From Lentilactobacillus parabuchneri DSM 5707 = NBRC 107865 (GTDB taxonomy: Bacteria; Bacillota; Bacilli; Lactobacillales; Lactobacillaceae): 64,000 nucleotides of DNA. The notes below the pieces were generated by a model. It was given only the letters and a program-made list of their open reading frames with translations. It ran no database searches and was not told where the DNA came from. Both the position numbers and the translations under genes were made by a program. The stretch spans positions 124,001 through 188,000 of the forward strand of contig NZ_AZGK01000003.1 in the NCBI RefSeq assembly GCF_001435315.1, in the 5' to 3' direction. Positions within the stretch are counted from its first letter, which is position 1. The number at the start of each line of letters is the position of its first letter. This document shows positions 14,502-60,809 of the stretch, piece by piece.

Positions 14502-15686
14502 TTAATCGCTTAAATAGTTGATGGTTGCTGTTCCGGCAGCTTTGGCGGCAATCAACAGGCATTTTTCATTCATCATAAAATCTGGACTGTGGTGGGGATG
14601 ATTGGCACCATCGTCGGTCATACAACCGACATAAAAGAAGATACTGGGCCTTTCTTGGGCGAAGTAGGCAAAGTCTTCGGAAGGATCCTGAGGGCCAAAG
14701 TCGGTAATTTGGGTGACTTCAGGAATCTTTGCGGCTTCCAAAGTTTGGATGACTTGCTTGCTGAACTGAGTATCGTTGTATAAGACTGGGTAATTGTCAT
14801 CATAGTCGATGGTACTGTGAACGCCAAACATTACTTCGATACCGTGGGCAATTTGCTCGACTTGCTGGCGGATCTTTTGCCGGGTTGCTTCTTTCATGAC
14901 CCGGACGTCACCCTTTAACGTGACCGATTCTTTGATCGCGTTAAACGAGCCAACACCATCGAATGACCCAATCGTAACGGAACCGGTATCAAACGGGTCC
15001 AGTCGGCGAGAAACGACCGTTTGTAGGGAAGTGACAAAGTAGCTCCCTGCCACAATGGCGTCATTTGAGAGGTGCGGCATTGACGCGTGACCGCCTTTTC
15101 CGGTAAAGGTGATGGTGAAGTCAGAGCGGCCGGTTTGGCTTTCCCCGTAATGGTAGCCGATTGCCCCAGTTGGCATTGAAGACATCACGTGAATGCCGAT
15201 CACGTTATCGACGCCATCCAGCGCGCCATCTTTGATCATTGATTTGGCTCCACCGGGAGAGACTTCCTCAGCCGGCTGGTGGATGATTCGAATTGAGCCT
15301 TTTAAGTGATCTTTAAGAGCGATCAGGTTCTTGGCCAAAACCATCATGTAAGCAGTGTGACCATCATGGCCGCATGCGTGCATGACACCTGGATTCTGGG
15401 ATTTGAAAGGTAAATCATTGTCTTCTTGAATTGCCAGGGCGTCAAAGTCGGCGCGCAAGGCGAGCTTTGGTCCAGGATTTTCGCTATCGATATCGACCAA
15501 GAGTCCATAACCGTCGCCACAGTTTCGGACGGTGCAATCAAGTCCCTGATAAAAATCTTTGATATAGGCTGCAGTTTGTTTTTCCTTAAACGATAATTCC
15601 GGGTGTTCATGAAGATGGCGGCGAATCTTGATCATTTCGTCTTCATCCGCTTCTAACCGCTGCATCAATTCTTTTTCAACATCCAA
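14502..15686 (-). CDS. M20-family amidohydrolase (N-acyl-amino acid / hippurate hydrolase type)
   Basis: Cytoplasmic metallohydrolase of 394 residues. Metal-ligand blocks are MHACGHDGHTAYMM (about residue 100), the catalytic acid region HQPAEEVSPGG (about 135) and GIHVMSSMPTG; the C-terminal FYVGC and HSPDF blocks complete the family pattern. These enzymes release amino acids from N-acetyl, benzoyl or similar conjugates. The start is TTG, eight bases after AGGAGG. It is the third gene of a unit with two ThrE-type membrane proteins, 16 bases downstream, so a released amino acid may be what the transporter handles (inference). Confidence 0.9.
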   Translation of the reverse strand: MDVEKELMQRLEADEDEMIKIRRHLHEHPELSFKEKQTAAYIKDFYQGLDCTVRNCGDGYGLLVDIDSENPGPKLALRADFDALAIQEDNDLPFKSQNPGVMHACGHDGHTAYMMVLAKNLIALKDHLKGSIRIIHQPAEEVSPGGAKSMIKDGALDGVDNVIGIHVMSSMPTGAIGYHYGESQTGRSDFTITFTGKGGHASMPHLSNDAIVAGSYFVTSLQTVVSRRLDPFDTGSVTIGSFDGVGSFNAIKESVTLKGDVRVMKEATRQKIRQQVEQIAHGIEVMFGVHSTIDYDDNYPVLYNDTQFSKQVIQTLEAAKIPEVTQITDFGPQDPSEDFAYFAQERPSIFFYVGCMTDDGANHPHHSPDFMMNEKCLLIAAKAAGTATINYLSD

Positions 15687-15702: not shown

Positions 15703-16170
15703 TTATTTGTTTGCTGGCTGTTTACGTCGACTTACTACCTTAAGCAATAAGGGCTTAATTCGATTAAAAATGACTTCAGCGACGACAAAACCGACTGCCA
15801 AAGCAATGGCGATCGTTAACGCGTTAAACATGTATTGGCCGGTCCGCCATTCGTTTCCAAGGGTAAAACTTCTCATGCCCAGGTATAAAATCCCGCCGGG
15901 AACTAATGAGACCAGGCTGGGGACGTAGATGATATTAACGGGTACCCGAAAGATCACCGCCGAAATATTACCCAGAATCCCAATAACGATCGCCGCCGTA
16001 AAGTTCGATAGAATTAAGCCGTGATCAACTTGAAGGACCAGGTAATAAGCGACCCAGGCAAGCGATCCGGTAATTCCTGCGGGCAACAGTGATCGCCGCG
16101 GAACGTTGGTGACCAGACCAAAGCCCACGGTTGAAAGAAAACTGACGATTAATTCAACTAAGACTTTCAT
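15703..16170 (-). CDS. Threonine/serine exporter, small subunit (DUF3815/ThrE_2)
   Basis: Membrane protein of 155 residues with about five hydrophobic helices. VPSLVSLVPGGILYLGMRS with the PGG turn is typical of the C-terminal half of ThrE. In many Firmicutes ThrE is split; this gene overlaps its partner by four bases (ATGA), so the two are translated together. Export of threonine and serine is proven for Corynebacterium ThrE only; here the substrate is inferred. A second copy of the pair lies at 33.0-34.2 kb. Confidence 0.87.
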   Translation of the reverse strand: MKVLVELIVSFLSTVGFGLVTNVPRRSLLPAGITGSLAWVAYYLVLQVDHGLILSNFTAAIVIGILGNISAVIFRVPVNIIYVPSLVSLVPGGILYLGMRSFTLGNEWRTGQYMFNALTIAIALAVGFVVAEVIFNRIKPLLLKVVSRRKQPANK

Positions 16171-16946
16171 AGGCCACCTCCGAGATGAAATAAAATTGAA
16201 GAAACGGCAGCGCCAATGACGACTCCCGCGCCAATTGAGCCGGCAATAATCAACGCATCAACCGCCCGGACCACTCCGGAGATGGTGTTGCGGTCGATAA
16301 TTTCTCGAAACGAGTTGGTAATGGCGACACCTGGAACCAAGGGCATCAGGGCACTGACGATGATGTTGCCGGCACTGGTAGCAATTCCCATTGACTGCAG
16401 AAGGGTTGCCAACAAACCAACGGTAAAACCACCAAGTCCGGCAGCAACGTAAGGCGTTTTAATCCGTGGGCTGGAAAGTGCGGCTGCCAAGTAGCCGAAG
16501 ATGCCAACAAAAAAGGCCAGTCCCAAGTCTGCCCAAGTTGCCTTGAACAAAAGCATTGGCGCGACTGAAACCAAGGCGGCGCCAAATACTTTTTCCGGCC
16601 AAGTGAAATCGATGACCTTTTTATCGATCTGATTGATGGTCTTTTTGAGCTCGGCAAAGTCAATTTTGCCTTCAACGAACCGGCGGGACATGGTGTTAAT
16701 TTCGTCGACTTTTTCCAAATTAAAGTCTCCAAGCCGCACCTTGACCAAGTGGGTTTTGGTTTGATTGTTGACGCCGACAAATAGGGCGGTGATTGTGGCG
16801 TGGCAGGTAATATCGTAGTGGGCGGCGCGGCCGATGTATTCGACGGTGCCTTCGACGCGTGAAGTTTCCGCACCGCTGGTCAAAAGGATTTTGCCGACTT
16901 GCCCACAGACCGTGATTAAATCATCTTCGGAAATTGATTCGTTCAT
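16167..16946 (-). CDS. Threonine/serine exporter, large subunit (DUF1212/ThrE)
   Basis: Protein of 259 residues. The N-terminal soluble part has LLTSGAETSRVEGTVEYIGR, the conserved E-[TS]-SRVE block of ThrE, and the C-terminal part carries about five membrane helices with LMPLVPGVAITNSFREII. The start is ATG after GAGGTGA. It is the first gene of the operon ThrE-large, ThrE-small, M20 amidohydrolase; a TATAAT-like -10 is visible on the minus strand near 17,980-equivalent distance from nothing else and is placed about 35 bases upstream of the start. Confidence 0.88.
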   Translation of the reverse strand: MNESISEDDLITVCGQVGKILLTSGAETSRVEGTVEYIGRAAHYDITCHATITALFVGVNNQTKTHLVKVRLGDFNLEKVDEINTMSRRFVEGKIDFAELKKTINQIDKKVIDFTWPEKVFGAALVSVAPMLLFKATWADLGLAFFVGIFGYLAAALSSPRIKTPYVAAGLGGFTVGLLATLLQSMGIATSAGNIIVSALMPLVPGVAITNSFREIIDRNTISGVVRAVDALIIAGSIGAGVVIGAAVSSILFHLGGGL

Positions 16947-31321: not shown

Positions 31322-31341
31322 CTGTTCTATTTTTCTGGCAA

Positions 31342-31360
31342 CCTAAACATTTTGTTTAGG
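31342..31360 (+). promoter_or_regulatory. DtxR/SloR-type operator of the CDF operon
   Basis: Perfect palindrome CCTAAACA-TTT-TGTTTAGG just upstream of the CDF gene promoter region. The TTTAGG/CCTAAA half-site is characteristic of DtxR/SloR boxes. A SloR-like repressor is encoded two genes down. Confidence 0.7.
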
Positions 31361-31418
31361 GCTATGGAAATTTTCATCAACTAATGCAATAATAATACTA
31401 GATTGGAGTGATTAATTG

Positions 31419-32330
31419 ATGGCAGAACAAAATCATGATCACGAAGAATTGGCCGGCTCCAAGTTCTTTTGGGTGACCGTGCTAAACGTTGTTATTACGA
31501 TTGCAGAATTTGTCGGCGGGGCGTTATCAGGGAGTCTTTCATTAATTTCAGATGCGTTTCATAATGCCGGCGATTCTGTTTCGATTGTTTTCAGTTATGC
31601 TGCAAGCCGTATCAGTCGGCGAAAGCAAAATGCGCGGAACACCTTTGGCTACAAACGAGCTGAAATTATTGCGGCATTCCTGAACTCAATCGCACTTGCC
31701 CTTATTTGTGTCTTTTTGATTGTTGAAGCGGCTAAACGAATTACTGACCCGCAACCCATCAATGGAAATTTGATGTTAACGATTGCGGTCATTGGTTTGG
31801 CTGCCAATTTATTGTCAGCGTTCTTACTCAATTCAGGTTCTAAAAGCAGCTTGAACATGAAGGCCACTTATTTACATATTCTGAGTGATGCCTTATCATC
31901 AATTGCAATTATTTTCGGTGGAATTTTAATTGATTTGTATAATTGGACACTGGCTGATCCGATTGTCACTGTCCTTGTGGCGGTTTACATTTTCTACGAA
32001 TCAATTCCAATTATTCGCCAAACATTCCGGATTTTGATGCAGGGAGCCCCCAACTTGGACTATGATCAAATCAAGCGTGACCTGCTGCAAATCGACGGCG
32101 TATTCTCTGTTCATCACGTTCATGCCTGGATGATCGATGAAAATAATTTAATTTTTTCAGCCCACGTTAATATGCACGATATGAAACTGAGTGACGCCCA
32201 ACCGATTTATTCTGAAATCAGTAAGGTACTCAAAGAAAAGTACCACATGTGTCACGTTACTATTCAAGCTGAAACGACTCGTGGCGAAAACGAAGACATT
32301 ATTTATGATCGCGGAAATGACATTCCATAA
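31419..32330 (+). CDS. Cation diffusion facilitator (metal efflux, CzcD/MntE-like)
   Basis: Membrane antiporter of 303 residues with six transmembrane helices. The metal-site motifs are in helix 2 (LISDAFHNAGDS) and helix 5 (YLHILSDALSS), both HxxxD-type, and the C-terminal cytoplasmic domain (about 210-290) has histidines (SVHHVHAWMI). It is an efflux pump for zinc, cobalt or manganese; the SloR-like repressor next to it favours manganese but the helix residues do not prove it. ATG 31419, with GGAG upstream. Confidence 0.9.
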   Translation: MAEQNHDHEELAGSKFFWVTVLNVVITIAEFVGGALSGSLSLISDAFHNAGDSVSIVFSYAASRISRRKQNARNTFGYKRAEIIAAFLNSIALALICVFLIVEAAKRITDPQPINGNLMLTIAVIGLAANLLSAFLLNSGSKSSLNMKATYLHILSDALSSIAIIFGGILIDLYNWTLADPIVTVLVAVYIFYESIPIIRQTFRILMQGAPNLDYDQIKRDLLQIDGVFSVHHVHAWMIDENNLIFSAHVNMHDMKLSDAQPIYSEISKVLKEKYHMCHVTIQAETTRGENEDIIYDRGNDIP

Positions 32331-32352
32331 AATATAGGAGATTTTGAGCTTA

Positions 32353-33000
32353 ATGACCCCAATGAAAGAGGACTATTTAAAAATTATATTTGAACTTGGC
32401 GGCGCCGATAAGTTAATCAGCAATAAGCAAATTGCAATTAGCTTAAACATTGCGGCTGGTTCGGTGACTGAAATGGTTAATAAGATGGTCGATGAGAAGC
32501 TGGTGACCCATGAACCTTATTCCGGTGTTCAACTAACTGCTAAGGGTAAGCGCTACGCTGAAGAATTAGTTCGAAAGCACAGAATTTGGGAAACCTTTCT
32601 TGTTAACACGCTTCACTATGATATTTCCGATGTTCACGATGAAGCTGAACTCTTGGAACACGTGACCTCAGACAAGATGATTGATCATTTGGATGACTTT
32701 TTAGGCAATCCCAAACGCTGTCCGCACGGTGGTGTGATTCCAGATCGCAATGGCAATTACCATCCCGATCATGATAAAATTCTCACGGAAGCCAAAGACG
32801 GTGAAGAGGTCATCGTCAACCGCTTTATAGACAATCACGATCTGCTTACCTTATTGGGAGACATTAAGCTTGATATCGGCGACAAACTAAAGATCGTCTC
32901 CCACGATCCGTTTGAAGGGTCGGTCACGGTCAAAAATTTGACCGATAAGAAGAACTTGGTAATTGGTTATAAAACGGCCCACTACGTTTTTGTGAGGTGA
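32353..33000 (+). CDS. DtxR/MntR-family repressor, SloR/ScaR-like (manganese-responsive)
   Basis: Metalloregulator of 215 residues. The N-terminus MTPMKEDYLKII is that of streptococcal SloR/ScaR, with metal ligand D7; RKHRIWETF and the ExxEH block (AELLEHVTS) give the remaining ligands of the primary site. NPKRCPHGGVIP follows, and a C-terminal SH3-like domain (about 150-215) is present. I choose ATG 32353; TTG 32344 is an alternative closer to AGGAG. It lies 22 bases after the CDF gene and five bases before the ThrE-type pair. Confidence 0.9.
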   Translation: MTPMKEDYLKIIFELGGADKLISNKQIAISLNIAAGSVTEMVNKMVDEKLVTHEPYSGVQLTAKGKRYAEELVRKHRIWETFLVNTLHYDISDVHDEAELLEHVTSDKMIDHLDDFLGNPKRCPHGGVIPDRNGNYHPDHDKILTEAKDGEEVIVNRFIDNHDLLTLLGDIKLDIGDKLKIVSHDPFEGSVTVKNLTDKKNLVIGYKTAHYVFVR

Positions 33001-33004
33001 TCGC

Positions 33005-33775
33005 ATGGCAGATACAGCTACCAGGCAGGAGAATTACGACCACTTGGTACTAAACACCTGCGTTTTAGCAGGAAGAATCATGATTGAATCCGGTTCTGAA
33101 ATGTCGCGGGTAAACGACACGATTATGCGGATTGCCAAAAATGCCGGGTTGAAGGATGCGCAGGTCTACGCGACTTTAACCGGAATTATCATGTCCGGTG
33201 GCGTTAAGGAAGTCGGTGCCGAAGTCGGGTCGATCGATAAACGGGCTTTTGATATGGAAAAAGTGGCTAAGGTCAATGAATTATCACGGGCCTATGCCGC
33301 CAAAAAAATTGATATCTACGAATTCCGTGACGACCTTGTCCACATTGATGACTTGGTGGCCACGTTCCCGTTATGGCTTCAAACGCTGGGGGCCGGATTG
33401 GTCAGCGGAACGCTGGTCGTTGTGTTTCAAAACAACCTGCCTGATTTTTGGATTACGTTTATCGTCGGCATGTTCGGCTGGGCAGTTTATTATTTTTTGA
33501 ATATCTACATTCAGATACGCTTTTTGAGCGAGTTCCTGGCGGCGGTCGTAGTTGGTGCCCTAGCGTTGCTGTCGATTAAGTGGGGCCTGGGCGTTCACGC
33601 GGATGATATTATCATTGGTGGAATTATGCCGCTGGTTCCGGGAATTCCACTGACCAATGCCGTTCGGGATGCCTTATCGGGCAACTTGATCAGTGGGCCG
33701 GCCAGAGGAATTGAAGCGTTGATCAGTGCTTGTGCGTTGGGATTTGGCGTTGCAATTGCGCTACACTTCTTTTGA
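33005..33775 (+). CDS. Threonine/serine exporter, large subunit (DUF1212/ThrE), second copy
   Basis: Protein of 256 residues, a paralogue of 16167-16946: it carries MIESGSEMSRVNDTIMRIAK (ThrE block) and the membrane part with IMPLVPGIPLTNAVRDALSG. The GAGGTGA site lies over the stop of the repressor gene, and the start is five bases after it. The position in a metal-responsive operon is odd for an amino acid exporter. Another function, possibly linked to metal stress, is possible. Confidence 0.87.
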   Translation: MADTATRQENYDHLVLNTCVLAGRIMIESGSEMSRVNDTIMRIAKNAGLKDAQVYATLTGIIMSGGVKEVGAEVGSIDKRAFDMEKVAKVNELSRAYAAKKIDIYEFRDDLVHIDDLVATFPLWLQTLGAGLVSGTLVVVFQNNLPDFWITFIVGMFGWAVYYFLNIYIQIRFLSEFLAAVVVGALALLSIKWGLGVHADDIIIGGIMPLVPGIPLTNAVRDALSGNLISGPARGIEALISACALGFGVAIALHFF

Positions 33776-33784
33776 GGGATTCAA

Positions 33785-34240
33785 ATGAATTTATTTATCA
33801 TTAAATGTATTTGTGTATATTTTTCTGGAATTGGCTTTGGCCTGATCGTCAATTTGCCGCACCGGGCACTAAATGTCGCGGGTATCACCGCCACGTTGAG
33901 TTGGCTGGTCTACTACGCGATTATCAATACGTGGGGCGGATTAGGCGCCGCCAACTTTTTCGGTGGCCTAACGATTGGGTTGGTGTCCGTCATCATCGCC
34001 CATCTCAAGAAGATGCCCAGCATTTTATTTGACGTGCCGGGATTAGTGCCATTGGTTCCTGGCGGCCAGGCTTATAACACCATCAAGAACTTTGCCATGG
34101 GAAATTACCAAGTAGCGTTCAACTACCTTTCCGAAGTGGTCTGGATTGCCGGCTCAATTGCGTTGGGATTCATTGTGGCAGAGCTGATCAACAAAATTCG
34201 AATTAAACTTAAATATGCAACACGGTTGAGGAATCGATAG
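33785..34240 (+). CDS. Threonine/serine exporter, small subunit (DUF3815/ThrE_2), second copy
   Basis: Membrane protein of 151 residues, about five helices; VPGLVPLVPGGQAYNTIKNF matches the conserved region. It pairs with the gene nine bases upstream, and differs from the first copy (15703-16170) by not overlapping its partner. It is the last gene of the CDF/SloR unit; a weak hairpin with a T run lies near 34221-34252. Confidence 0.86.
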   Translation: MNLFIIKCICVYFSGIGFGLIVNLPHRALNVAGITATLSWLVYYAIINTWGGLGAANFFGGLTIGLVSVIIAHLKKMPSILFDVPGLVPLVPGGQAYNTIKNFAMGNYQVAFNYLSEVVWIAGSIALGFIVAELINKIRIKLKYATRLRNR

Positions 34241-34275
34241 GATTCCTTTTTTTATGGCCAATTTTGACATACTGA

Positions 34276-34351: not shown

Positions 34352-34669
34352 ATGGCGATTCAAATAAGTACAGAATTACTGGATGGCTGCGTGCTGGGAA
34401 TTTTAAACCAGCAGGACTACTACGGCTATGCGCTCACCCAGAAGGTTCAAGAATCAGTTTCAGTTTCAGAATCGACGATGTATCCGGTGCTTCGGCGATT
34501 GAAGAAAAATGATTTATTGACAACCTACGATGAGCCTTACCAGGGACGAAACCGGAGATATTACAAGATTACACCCGAGGGACAACGCCAATTTGGCATC
34601 ATTCAACGCGAGTGGGAAGAATTCAAAAAAGGAATTGACAAGATGATAGGAGATGGTCAGGATGAATGA
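34352..34669 (+). CDS. PadR-family transcriptional regulator
   Basis: Protein of 105 residues with a PadR winged helix: GILNQQDYYGYALTQKVQE and STMYPVLRRLKKNDLL, followed by the wing RRYYKITPEGQRQF. It ends with a short dimerisation helix, the class seen beside DUF1700 and DUF4097 genes in Firmicutes. It overlaps the next gene by eight bases. The palindrome upstream is the likely own-operator; the inducing signal is probably envelope stress (inference). Confidence 0.9.
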   Translation: MAIQISTELLDGCVLGILNQQDYYGYALTQKVQESVSVSESTMYPVLRRLKKNDLLTTYDEPYQGRNRRYYKITPEGQRQFGIIQREWEEFKKGIDKMIGDGQDE

Positions 34670-35294
34670 TTACATTGCGGAATTTCGGGCGTTGTTGGGC
34701 CAACTGAGTGAGGATGAACGAGCTGAAGCCGTTGACTTTTATCAGGAGTATCTCCAAGACGGTGGCTTTGAAACATACGATGACTGTGTCCGCGAACTTG
34801 GAACGCCGCATCAATTGGCTCGAAAAGTGTTGGCAGATTACTCGATTCGAACGATGGAAGCGCCCAGCGGCAATCAGACAAGAGGCAGCAAGCCAAAGAA
34901 TGATGTCAAAACAATCTGGCTGATTATTTTGGCAATTGTGTCGACTCCGGTCACAATTCCGTTGGCACTTGGGTTGGCGGGATTATTTGTCGCAGCGATT
35001 GCAGTTGTTGGGTCCCTAATTGTGGCTGTCATAGCAGTATTTGTGGCCATCATTACTTTAGGTGTTGTTGGACTTGTCGTCGGTCTTGGAACCATATTTA
35101 CATCGTTTTGGAGCGGAATCTTCTACTTGGGGATCGCCTTAATTGTTGCAGGACTCCTTGTTATGCTGTTCCCTGCGTTCAAGTGGCTGATTAACGAATT
35201 GATTCGCGGCATTACGCTATTTTCAAAATGGATTTATAACAAAATCGTGCCGAAAAATCGGGCAGAACAAAACAGAAAGGGTGATCAACAATGA
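34662..35294 (+). CDS. DUF1700-family membrane protein
   Basis: Protein of 210 residues. The N-terminal soluble part has the family features LGQLSEDERAEAVDFYQEYL and ELGTPHQLARKVLADY, and four hydrophobic segments follow (about residues 85-185). ATG 34662 is nine bases after AGGAG; the ATG at 34653 touches that site. It is coupled to the regulator upstream and the DUF4097 gene downstream. Function unknown. Confidence 0.87.
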   Translation: MNDYIAEFRALLGQLSEDERAEAVDFYQEYLQDGGFETYDDCVRELGTPHQLARKVLADYSIRTMEAPSGNQTRGSKPKNDVKTIWLIILAIVSTPVTIPLALGLAGLFVAAIAVVGSLIVAVIAVFVAIITLGVVGLVVGLGTIFTSFWSGIFYLGIALIVAGLLVMLFPAFKWLINELIRGITLFSKWIYNKIVPKNRAEQNRKGDQQ

Positions 35295-36178
35295 AAAAAA
35301 CAGTTGTAATTGGATTAGTTGTGACACTTTTAGGCGTTGTCCTGTTTTCGATCGGCCTTGGGCACGGTGGCGCTAAAACCGTTTATTGGGATCACGGCTT
35401 TACGACAGAGTCGTATGCGCACGTGGATTCTCACCAGACAAGCTCCCAATACGATGGGATTAAAAACTTTGACCTTTCAACAGACAGTCCGGTTCAAATT
35501 AAAAAGGGCGATGTTTCAAAGGTCGAAGTGACATACCCCAGTGCGACTAAGATTACGAAATCGGGAGATACGCTGCATTTCGTTCTGAAATTACCACAAC
35601 GCCGCCATTCAGTGATTGTGTTTGGCAGCGATTTTCAGCGGCCTTCAAAAAGTGTTGGAAAAACGGTCATCACGGTCCCTCAGGATACCGAAATTGGAAC
35701 GATTACCAGTAACGTATCGGATTCTATTTCTGTCCATAATCTGACAATCAAAACAATTACGTCCAGTGGGGTTGGCGATATTACTCTGGACCACGTTGTT
35801 ACAAAAGGGAACTTAAATCTTGATAATACAGGTGACACGACGCTTTCACATAGTCGATTTCCAAATGCCAAGTTAGACGTTGGGGCCGGAGATGTGACAT
35901 TAACGTCGAATACGTTCAAGACCATGAACGTTAAAACCGGCGCGGGTGATATTGATTTCAACCAGCAAAACGTTGCTGAGAGCTTTACCGCTAAGAGTTA
36001 TGTTGGCGACATTGACGGCAAGATTGCCAGAAATAAAAAGACCCAAGTTTCCGTCAGCGCTGATGTTGGTGATGTTTCGGTCTTTGGCAGTTCACATAAG
36101 AAGCAGATTCTTAGTTCAGTTAAACATCCGGTGATCTATAAATTTACCAGTGACGTCGGTGATGTCGACATTCACTAA
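35291..36178 (+). CDS. DUF4097-family beta-strand repeat protein
   Basis: Protein of 295 residues with an N-terminal membrane anchor (about residues 5-25) and an extracellular right-handed beta-helix-like domain: repeats of the type SGVGDITLDHV, NTGDTTLSHS, GAGDVTLTSN, GAGDIDFNQ and VGDVDIH occur about every 18-20 residues. It overlaps the DUF1700 gene by four bases (ATGA), so the three are one unit. Related proteins belong to envelope-stress operons. Confidence 0.88.
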   Translation: MKKTVVIGLVVTLLGVVLFSIGLGHGGAKTVYWDHGFTTESYAHVDSHQTSSQYDGIKNFDLSTDSPVQIKKGDVSKVEVTYPSATKITKSGDTLHFVLKLPQRRHSVIVFGSDFQRPSKSVGKTVITVPQDTEIGTITSNVSDSISVHNLTIKTITSSGVGDITLDHVVTKGNLNLDNTGDTTLSHSRFPNAKLDVGAGDVTLTSNTFKTMNVKTGAGDIDFNQQNVAESFTAKSYVGDIDGKIARNKKTQVSVSADVGDVSVFGSSHKKQILSSVKHPVIYKFTSDVGDVDIH

Positions 36179-39034: not shown

Positions 39035-39220
39035 TTAATCGATATATTCGAGTAGAGGCGCATTCATTATAAGTATATTTCAGGAACTTGAAGGAAGTTA
39101 TGACTGAAGTAAAAAGGGATGAGTGCCGAAACAATCAATCGCCTTCCGGTTGGTTGTTGGGCCCTAACTTAAGAGGTTAGGGACTGTCGTGGCAGATACC
39201 GCGGGGAGCTATCAAGATGT
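39035..39220 (+). promoter_or_regulatory. Lysine riboswitch (L box)
   Basis: Conserved core elements appear in order: AGAGGCGC with AAGTA (about 39054-39075), AAGGGATGAGTGCCGAA (about 39114-39130), TTGGGCCC then GGACTGTCGTGGCAG (39177-39195) and GGGGAGCTATC (39203-39213), which closes with GATA of the 5' side. Lysine binding should favour the terminator at 39234 and shut off the permease. Confidence 0.88.
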
Positions 39221-43000: not shown

Positions 43001-44284
43001 ATGTTAGATATTAAGAAGATTCGTAAAGATCCGGATTTTACCAAAGAAAAGTTGGCGACCCGTGGCGTCAAACCGGAAACAATTGATGAGTTACTGAGCT
43101 TTGATGCCAAGCGCCGGGACTTAATTGTTGAATCAGAGTCACTGAAGGCACAGCGAAATGATGTTTCGGATCAAATTTCTCAAAAAAAGCGTAATAAGGA
43201 AGACGCATCTGAAGCGATTAATCAAATGAAGCAGGTTGGCCAAAAGATAAAAACTCTCGATGACCAACTGCGAAAAATCGAAGACGATGAAAACAACTTA
43301 GCCGCTCACTTACCAAATATTCCACACGATGGGGTTCCAGTTTCGCTGACTGAAGAAGGATCGGTTGAGCTTCGAAAGGTTGGCCAGATTCCGTCATTTG
43401 ATTTCAAACCCAAACATCATTGGGAGATCGGTGAAGAGTTAGGAATTCTTGACTTTGAACGGGCTGCGAAAGTATCCGGAAGCCGATTTGTTTACTACAT
43501 CGGCGATGGCGCATTACTGGAACGAGCGGTTTATAATTTTTATCTCGATCAAAATACCGCTGCCGGTTATACCGAAGTGATCCCACCATATATGGTGAAC
43601 GACGACTCGATGTTTGGCACCGGTCAATTTCCTAAGTTCCTCGAGACCAAGGCTGGCTACGAAATTCAAGACAGTGATCTAACCCTGATTCCAACGGCTG
43701 AAGTTCCGCTGGTTAATTACTATCGAAACGAAGTCATCCCAACTGAAAAGCTGCCGGTTTCAGTGACTGCGTTATCACCAGCATTCCGCTCAGAAGCCGG
43801 AAGTGCTGGCCGCGACACCAAAGGGTTAATTCGTCTGCATCAATTTAACAAGGTTGAAATGGTTAAATTTACCAAGCCGGAAGATTCGTGGAAGGCATTG
43901 GAAGAAATTACCCACCAAGCTGAAGTTAATTTGCAAAAATTGGGATTAGCCTACCACGTCATCACGCTAACGACCAGTGACATGAGCTTTACGGCAGCAA
44001 TGACACATGATTTGGAAGTCTGGTTCCCAGCTCAAGACAAGTACCGAGAAATCTCAAGTTGTTCCAACTGTACTGATTTCCAAGCACGGCGCGCTCACAT
44101 CCAATATCGTGATGAAGATGGTAAGCTTCATTTTGTGCACACTTTGAACGGCTCTGGTTTAGCTGTCGGCCGAACGGTTGCCGCTATTTTGGAGAACTAC
44201 CAAAATCCAGATGGGACAGTGACAATCCCAGAAGTCTTACGACCATACATGCATGGTATGACAAAAATCGAAAAACAAAAATAA
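43001..44284 (+). CDS. serS: Seryl-tRNA synthetase
   Basis: Class II aminoacyl-tRNA synthetase, 427 residues. The N-terminal antiparallel coiled coil (about 30-105) contacts the long variable arm of tRNA-Ser. Motif 2 is [20 protein letters not shown] and motif 3 is [16 protein letters not shown]. It charges tRNA-Ser and tRNA-Sec type substrates. It is controlled by the T-box upstream, and a structured region and a strong terminator follow. Confidence 0.96.
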
Positions 44285-44700: not shown

Positions 44701-44773
44701 GGAGGATTAGCTCAGCTGGGAGAGCATCTGCCTTACAAGCAGGAGGTCACAGGTTCGATCCCTGTATCCTCCA
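44701..44773 (+). tRNA. tRNA-Val (TAC)
   Basis: Cloverleaf of 73 bases; acceptor GGAGGAT/ATCCTCC, anticodon TAC in the loop CTTACAA, T-loop TTCGATC. First of eight closely spaced tRNA genes. Confidence 0.97.
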
Positions 44774-44776
44774 TAT

Positions 44777-44849
44777 GAGCCGTTAGCTCAGTTGGTAGAG
44801 CATCTGACTTTTAATCAGAGGGTCGGCAGTTCGAGACTGCCACGGCTCA
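44777..44849 (+). tRNA. tRNA-Lys (TTT)
   Basis: Acceptor GAGCCGT/ACGGCTC, anticodon TTT in CTTTTAA, T-loop TTCGAGA. Only three bases from tRNA-Val. Confidence 0.97.
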
Positions 44850-44870
44850 TTGCCAGTTTTTTCAAACAAT

Positions 44871-44952
44871 GCGGGCGTGGCGGAACTGGCAGACGCGCTA
44901 GATTTAGGTTCTAGTGTCTTATGACGTGGGGGTTCGAATCCCTTCGCCCGCA
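44871..44952 (+). tRNA. tRNA-Leu (TAG)
   Basis: Class II tRNA of 82 bases with a long variable arm; acceptor GCGGGCG/CGCCCGC, anticodon TAG in TTTAGGT. Confidence 0.96.
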
Positions 44953-44985
44953 TAGGTACTAGATGCCTATCAACTATATTGTTTT

Positions 44986-45059
44986 GCCGACTTAGCTCAG
45001 TTGGTTAGAGCGCTTCACTAGTAATGAAGAGGTCGGGCGTTCGAATCGTCTAGTCGGCA
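44986..45059 (+). tRNA. tRNA-Thr (AGT)
   Basis: Acceptor GCCGACT/AGTCGGC, anticodon AGT in CTAGTAA; A34 would be read as such or modified. Confidence 0.95.
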
Positions 45060-45063
45060 TTTT

Positions 45064-45135
45064 GCGGAAGTAGTTCAGTGGTAGAACATCACCTTGCCAT
45101 GGTGGGGGTCGCGGGTTCGAATCCCGTCTTCCGCT
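45064..45135 (+). tRNA. tRNA-Gly (GCC)
   Basis: Acceptor GCGGAAG/CTTCCGC, anticodon GCC in TTGCCAT, discriminator T. Confidence 0.96.
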
Positions 45136-45180
45136 TCAATCAGGATTTTGATTGAGGCTCACTAATTAAATACTTATTAT

Positions 45181-45254
45181 GCACCCATAGCGCAATTGGA
45201 TAGAGTGTCTGACTACGAATCAGAAGGTTGTAGGTTCGACTCCTACTGGGTGCA
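45181..45254 (+). tRNA. tRNA-Arg (ACG)
   Basis: Acceptor GCACCCA/TGGGTGC, anticodon ACG in CTACGAA (A34 is normally inosine). Confidence 0.96.
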
Positions 45255-45280
45255 TTTTTTATTGCCATCAACTATTTTTT

Positions 45281-45354
45281 CGGGAAGTAGCTCAGCTTGG
45301 TAGAGCACCTGGTTTGGGACCAGGGGGTCGCAGGTTCGAATCCTGTCTTCCCGA
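45281..45354 (+). tRNA. tRNA-Pro (TGG)
   Basis: Acceptor CGGGAAG/CTTCCCG, anticodon TGG in TTTGGGA, T-loop TTCGAAT. Confidence 0.96.
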
Positions 45355-45414
45355 CTTTTTTCAACATAGATTTTGTGATATATTGATATTGTTAATTCAA
45401 TAGTACTTAATCAT

Positions 45415-45488
45415 CGGGAAGTAGCTCAGCTTGGTAGAGCACTACGTTCGGGACGTAGGGGTCGCAAGTTCAAATCTTGTTTTCCCGA
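45415..45488 (+). tRNA. tRNA-Pro (CGG)
   Basis: Acceptor CGGGAAG/TTTCCCG with a terminal G-U, anticodon CGG in TTCGGGA, T-loop TTCAAAT. Close relative of the tRNA-Pro just upstream, with 60 bases between; likely a duplication followed by anticodon change. Confidence 0.93.
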
Positions 45489-60751: not shown

Positions 60752-60809
60752 ATTTGAGTACTTGTTTTTAGGGATAAGTTTGCCCTAAACGAGTTTGTAT
60801 TAGCTTTGA

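Follow-up and report, generated by a model that had tools for sequence, protein, structure and literature searches.

Does a ThrE-type exporter pair that shares an operon with a metal sensor and a cation exporter take part in metal balance? The question arises from a locus in the window, the 64,000-nucleotide stretch of DNA analyzed here, where genes for a CDF exporter, a DtxR-family regulator, and the large and small subunits of a ThrE pair follow one another (Table 1). A sequence-only reading had described them as a probable manganese-responsive operon behind a regulator-binding palindrome, with a ThrE pair that may serve metal homeostasis. Its four co-directional genes and intergenic gaps of 22, 4, and 9 bases agree with the coordinates. 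The source genome is placed in Lentilactobacillus by its relatives, and the closest of these in the tree is L. parakefiri. When the region between the DtxR start region and ThrE was searched for promoters, no consensus promoter was found in 32400-33010. These data support a single operon in the source genome, from which all four genes would be co-transcribed.

Table 1. Features of the CDF-DtxR-ThrE locus (positions in the window).
Feature	Position	Strand	Basis or remark
Candidate SRE-like operator, TTTCTGGCAACCTAAACA, at the CDF promoter; a conserved element, weak here, with a 3-base spacer	31332..31349	+	Position conserved; CCTAA near-invariant in 12 Lentilactobacillus loci
Perfect palindrome CCTAAACATTTTGTTTAGG	31342..31360		Conservation covers the left arm (half-site) and not the outer right arm
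Probable promoter TGGAAA-17-AATAAT, TG before -10	31365..31393	+	-35/-10 kept in relatives
CDF cation exporter gene, Zn-type	31416..32330 (alternative ATG 31419)	+	Pfam Cation_efflux; H49xxxD53, H154xxxD158
SloR/ScaR-like DtxR-family metalloregulator gene	32353..33000	+	Pfam Fe_dep_repress + Fe_dep_repr_C + FeoA
ThrE large subunit gene, YjjP-like	33005..33775	+	Pfam ThrE, PF06738
ThrE small subunit gene, YjjB-like	33785..34240	+	Pfam ThrE_2, PF12821
Terminator-like hairpin, operon end	34228..34248	+	Sequence

The locus was compared across the best 80 of 162 relatives; ThrE large is up to 97% identical within the genus. Gene order, which the earlier reading had named as a check, was kept, but an unrelated PAP2 phosphatase gene was kept likewise, in 70 of these 80 loci. 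On the strength of this equal conservation, synteny was rejected as proof of function. Downstream of the operon, genes for a PadR regulator, HAAS, and a DUF4097 "toastrack" protein lie at 34352-36178 (+) with a promoter-like site ahead, and this set is also found behind ThrE in several Lentilactobacillus. Elsewhere the window contains a lysine riboswitch aptamer (Rfam RF00168, 117.6 bits) at 39045-39219 (+), eight tRNA matches at 44701-45488, and an S10-Clostridia leader match barely above threshold at 60798.

The regulator has the SloR/ScaR-type domain set of HTH, metal-binding/dimer, and FeoA domains (Pfam) and is the sole PF02742 (DtxR-family) gene found in the genome. Its nearest solved proteins are SloR (157.9 bits) and ScaR (143.9 bits); the MntR equivalogs of NCBIfam scored below cut-off (122.8 of 350 and 65.7 of 138). 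Metal ligands, at positions and under names that we take to be those of ScaR and SloR, were compared in the best 80 of 162 relatives: D10, H79, E83, E102, E105, H106, and C126 were present in 80/80, while E100 was D in 6 and H128 was N in 1. A SloR/ScaR-like protein is thereby supported, and its metal-dependent binding to SRE sites is predicted by comparison.

For operator discovery, mntH was chosen as an independent target of a SloR/ScaR-type regulator. Directly ahead of the -35 element of the long-type mntH of Lentilactobacillus stands AGTTAGGNNNNCCTAATT, found as a simple pattern in 17 of 22 loci, that of the source genome included; loci L150 and L162 carry variants recognized by eye. The 15 distinct mntH sites, with no CDF-region sequence among them, gave a matrix that was run at the 5% level over the 200 bp ahead of other genes. 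CDF and ThrE starts were extrapolated from tblastn matches to residue 1, and rows with fewer than 100 bases upstream were excluded. CDF upstream regions were matched in 31/67 relatives from 8/10 groups, most matches stemming from related species, or in 31/68 when the window is counted as a miss (score 1.0, p = 0.24). These matches lay at similar distances from the start. Five other conserved genes served as controls and gave 9/263 matches (2/70, 3/60, 0/46, 3/45, and 1/42), and column-shuffled matrices matched a mean of 3.1 and a maximum of 8 of the 67 CDF regions. Upstream of the DtxR gene itself, 7/81 loci matched, four of them divergent CDF/DtxR loci sharing one site; upstream of ThrE large, just 2/73 did. 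The mntH-derived operator thus likely precedes the CDF gene too, as a candidate binding site of the regulator. The best matrix match within the window lies at 43437-43454 (score 11.3).

The palindrome sits exactly where it had been reported, with 0.02 occurrences expected at up to three mismatches for this sequence. Its nearest other matches in the whole genome have three mismatches, at 12 places versus 30 for a reversed control pattern. Perfect 8-3-8 inverted repeats number five in the window versus 1.4 ± 1.1 in 30 shuffles, and as an anonymous palindrome the sequence is not exceptional. When 12 Lentilactobacillus loci were anchored on CCTAA, agreement with the window was at least 90% at each of these five bases and 70-90% in the inner TGTT. 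In the right arm, agreement over the outer TAGG was only 20, 60, 20, and 0% (digits rounded down), and a nearly whole palindrome was retained only in L. parakefiri (L045), with one mismatch. The half-sites of the mntH operator (TTAGG....CCTAA) face the opposite way from the palindrome arms. Comparison with relatives, in which only the left CCTAA and inner TGTT are conserved, led to rejection of the perfect palindrome as the regulator-binding element. A similar trap has been described in Streptococcus mutans, where a palindrome picked out by eye close to the -10 of mntH showed no binding (PMC12096823). That the palindrome marks where two SREs meet in tandem at a 22-bp spacing, the arrangement of S. 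mutans sloABC, is at most a tentative idea: in mntH promoters the spacing between matrix matches had a peak at +22 (z 2.6, level with that at +38; n = 17), and in CDF promoters it showed no such peak (0.8; n = 13). Paired sites in the mntH promoters of two genomes (G071 and G086) lay 104 and 90 bp apart.

No DtxR gene was found in 5/24 genomes of the genus. Since G002, G010, G021, and G023, two of them single-contig assemblies, form one clade in the tree, regulator loss in Lentilactobacillus is counted as one event. In this clade ThrE large, ThrE small, and PadR come immediately after the CDF gene. Its CDF promoter kept the -35/-10 elements, clearly in three of the four genomes (G021 differs), and lost the CCTAA element, and the operator is absent from the mntH loci inspected in it (L140, L144, L152, and L160). 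The operator is thus missing at both genes in a clade that lost the regulator. A Fisher test compared these four mntH loci with 18 DtxR-bearing ones; its value, like the binomial ones, ignores relatedness. Among 15 mntH loci on which the matrix had not been trained (the same four and 11 from other genera), it matched 5/7 DtxR-bearing and 0/8 DtxR-less loci at the 5% level. The draft genome G014, whose locus L168 was excluded from the Fisher test, has the mntH operator, yet neither DtxR nor a close ThrE ortholog was found in it; it is an exception or an assembly gap.

Which metal the CDF protein exports can be judged from its signature motifs. DxxxD in TMD V marks Mn-CDFs and HxxxD marks Zn- and Fe/Zn-CDFs (Montanini et al.; PMC1868760). 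The CDF has HxxxD in both TM2 and TM5 in 66/66 relatives, with TM5 reading HILSD instead of DxxxD, so that both the TM2 His and the TM5 HxxxD expected of a Zn-CDF under that rule are present. ZitB was the best specific NCBIfam model (222.6 of 408) and ZnT8 the best PDB match; equivalog cut-offs were reached neither for ZitB nor for MntE. The protein is a probable zinc exporter, and HxxxD leaves some room for Mn. The second CDF of the genome carries, in our reading, the DxxxD-type sequence DLKSD at the position of TM5, and any Mn-type CDF of the cell would therefore more likely be that one. The manganese-responsive operon of the sequence-only reading keeps its single operon, its SloR/ScaR-type regulator, and a probably metal-responsive CDF promoter, but a Mn exporter in it is not supported. 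A better name would therefore be a Mn sensor with mntH and a probable zinc exporter under its control. SczA is a regulator of zinc efflux. In a study of regulons of lactic acid bacteria, it falls in a group without a Lactobacillaceae entry, as the flattened table reads (PMC3616900). In Enterococcus faecalis, mntH2, efaCBA, and ef0575-78 are raised by excess Zn and lowered by Mn (PMC3203883), which makes it reasonable for a Mn sensor to govern a zinc exporter.

The exporter pair scored above the Pfam cut-offs (PF06738, 246 bits; PF12821, 124.3 bits) as a split ThrE/ThrE_2 pair and below that of the NCBIfam ThrE Thr/Ser exporter equivalog (37.3 and 32.3 of 550). It aligned with Escherichia coli YjjP at E 6e-12. 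YjjPB is described as a succinate transporter in a secondary source (PMC7236211) and annotated in K-12 as a "putative succinate exporter." An AlphaFold2 model of ThrE large (pLDDT 81.6) matched no PDB structure significantly (best E 1.1), its sequence found no solved relative (best E 0.9), and PHROGs gave no match. A literature search found no paper on DUF1212 with DUF3815 and none tying a ThrE pair to a metal regulon; "threonine" and "cation efflux" are absent from the main text of PMC3616900. Another split pair, 32% identical to that of the operon, lies in the window at 15703-16946 (-), adjoined by an M20-type amidohydrolase-like ORF (14502-15686; named by eye), and a third, fused ThrE is on contig C12.

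The junction between DtxR and ThrE varies across the family. The gap is at most 30 bp in 10/72 loci, the window not counted: 8/16 Lentilactobacillus (both groups), one Secundilactobacillus, and one UBA5807; in the source clade it measures 4-5 bases. Gaps above 30 bp contain a terminator in 49/62 cases versus 1.9% of shuffled gaps, and TATAAT stands ahead of ThrE in 40/72 loci (25/27 in Levilactobacillus). These counts therefore limit co-transcription with the metal genes to part of the family. A separate ThrE promoter behind a terminator is the rule in other genera, as seen in Levilactobacillus and Secundilactobacillus, but none was seen in the source clade. DtxR and ThrE are not adjacent in most loci of Lactiplantibacillus, Limosilactobacillus, and Liquorilactobacillus, where other genes intervene (by eye, a small cold-shock-like ORF). 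Insertions of ~300 bp with repeated motifs keep the two genes apart in L. rapi, L. kisonensis, and L. dabitei (L046, L047, and L048). The L. farraginis locus (L062) has CDF, DtxR, and ThrE large each in two tblastn pieces, which fits frameshifts or sequencing errors. ThrE forms part of the CDF operon chiefly in Lentilactobacillus, and it has remained with CDF where the regulator is lost. With the operator so rare before ThrE and its own promoter behind a terminator in most genera, the proposed service in metal homeostasis is not favored, and the pair is most plausibly a passenger on the transcript.

We lean slightly toward a Mn-sensing SloR-type regulon of mntH and the Zn-type CDF, with ThrE carried along. 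A single SloR/ScaR-type regulator, probably Mn-loaded, would bind AGTTAGGNNNNCCTAATT-type sites at mntH and, less strongly, at the CDF gene heading its own operon. Uptake of Mn would thereby be linked to the efflux of a rival metal, most probably zinc. At low Mn or a high Zn:Mn ratio, the regulator would be unloaded and mntH and CDF expressed. In this clade ThrE would be carried on the CDF transcript, its substrate probably an amino or organic acid rather than a metal. Against this explanation, the CDF site of the window is weak, the palindrome takes its place both there and in L. parakefiri, and the CDF site is centered near -60 from the inferred start, a position also used by activators. In Bacillus subtilis, MntR activates the CDF exporters MneP and MneS through low-affinity sites upstream of -35 (PMC11275975). 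An activator at high metal with a Mn-exporting CDF is a possibility we hold to be doubtful: the CDF sites here are indeed weaker than the mntH sites and upstream of -35, but the protein has HxxxD in TM2 and TM5, the DxxxD is in the other CDF by our reading, and the genes remain intact after regulator loss.

The remaining alternatives concern ThrE. The pair could export a metal-binding metabolite within the metal response, as the sequence-only reading had it; the related E. coli YjjPB is described as transporting succinate (PMC7236211), and dicarboxylates can bind metals. The shared operon, the 4-base gap, the lack of a detected internal promoter, and ThrE directly behind CDF in the four DtxR-less genomes, which could mean a real functional link, fit this idea. 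We consider it improbable, as 71/73 ThrE upstream regions have no operator, terminators and TATAAT elements separate the genes in the proportions given above, PAP2 is equally syntenic, and among the matches listed no ThrE was seen near DtxR outside the family (by eye; split contigs were not judgeable). Recruitment of a ThrE/YjjPB-type exporter into a Zn/Mn operon in Lentilactobacillus, exporting a metal-binding or pathway-relieving organic or amino acid, would account for ThrE staying directly behind CDF after regulator loss and is likewise a long shot. Shared ancestral synteny with a ThrE promoter undetected here too would agree with the general synteny and the separate promoters of Levilactobacillus and Secundilactobacillus; the 4-5 base gaps of this clade and the absence of a promoter-like site in 32400-33010 make it equally unlikely.

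The preferred regulon corrects a plausible yet unsupported role of ThrE, and it gives the only DtxR-type sensor of the genome a predicted operator and a small set of targets, mntH and a Zn-type exporter, as a directly testable circuit. Manganese handling is central in lactobacilli, whose Mn scavenging inhibits mold and yeast in dairy (PMC7082583). The exporter pair shares Pfam ThrE/ThrE_2 with E. coli YjjPB and Corynebacterium glutamicum ThrE and the two-subunit split with YjjP/YjjB, but it is only 24% identical to YjjP and reaches 37 of 550 with the NCBIfam ThrE model. The CDF resembles ZitB/CzcD/ZnT-type zinc exporters in its CDF and ZT_dimer domains and TM2/TM5 HxxxD and differs in scoring below the ZitB equivalog cut-off. 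B. subtilis MntR with MneP/MneS likewise links a DtxR-family regulator to mntH and a CDF exporter; here, in contrast, the regulator has a FeoA domain and the CDF is of the HxxxD type. The SloR/ScaR regulon shares with this system its nearest solved proteins, conserved metal ligands, and an 18-bp operator layout before mntH, and S. mutans SloR binds 18-bp 6-6-6 sites such as SRE2, TAATAGGTACACCTTTTT (PMC12096823). The core there is AATTAA......TTAATT, whereas here the predicted core is TTAGG....CCTAA, and here a CDF exporter stands in the regulator's own operon.
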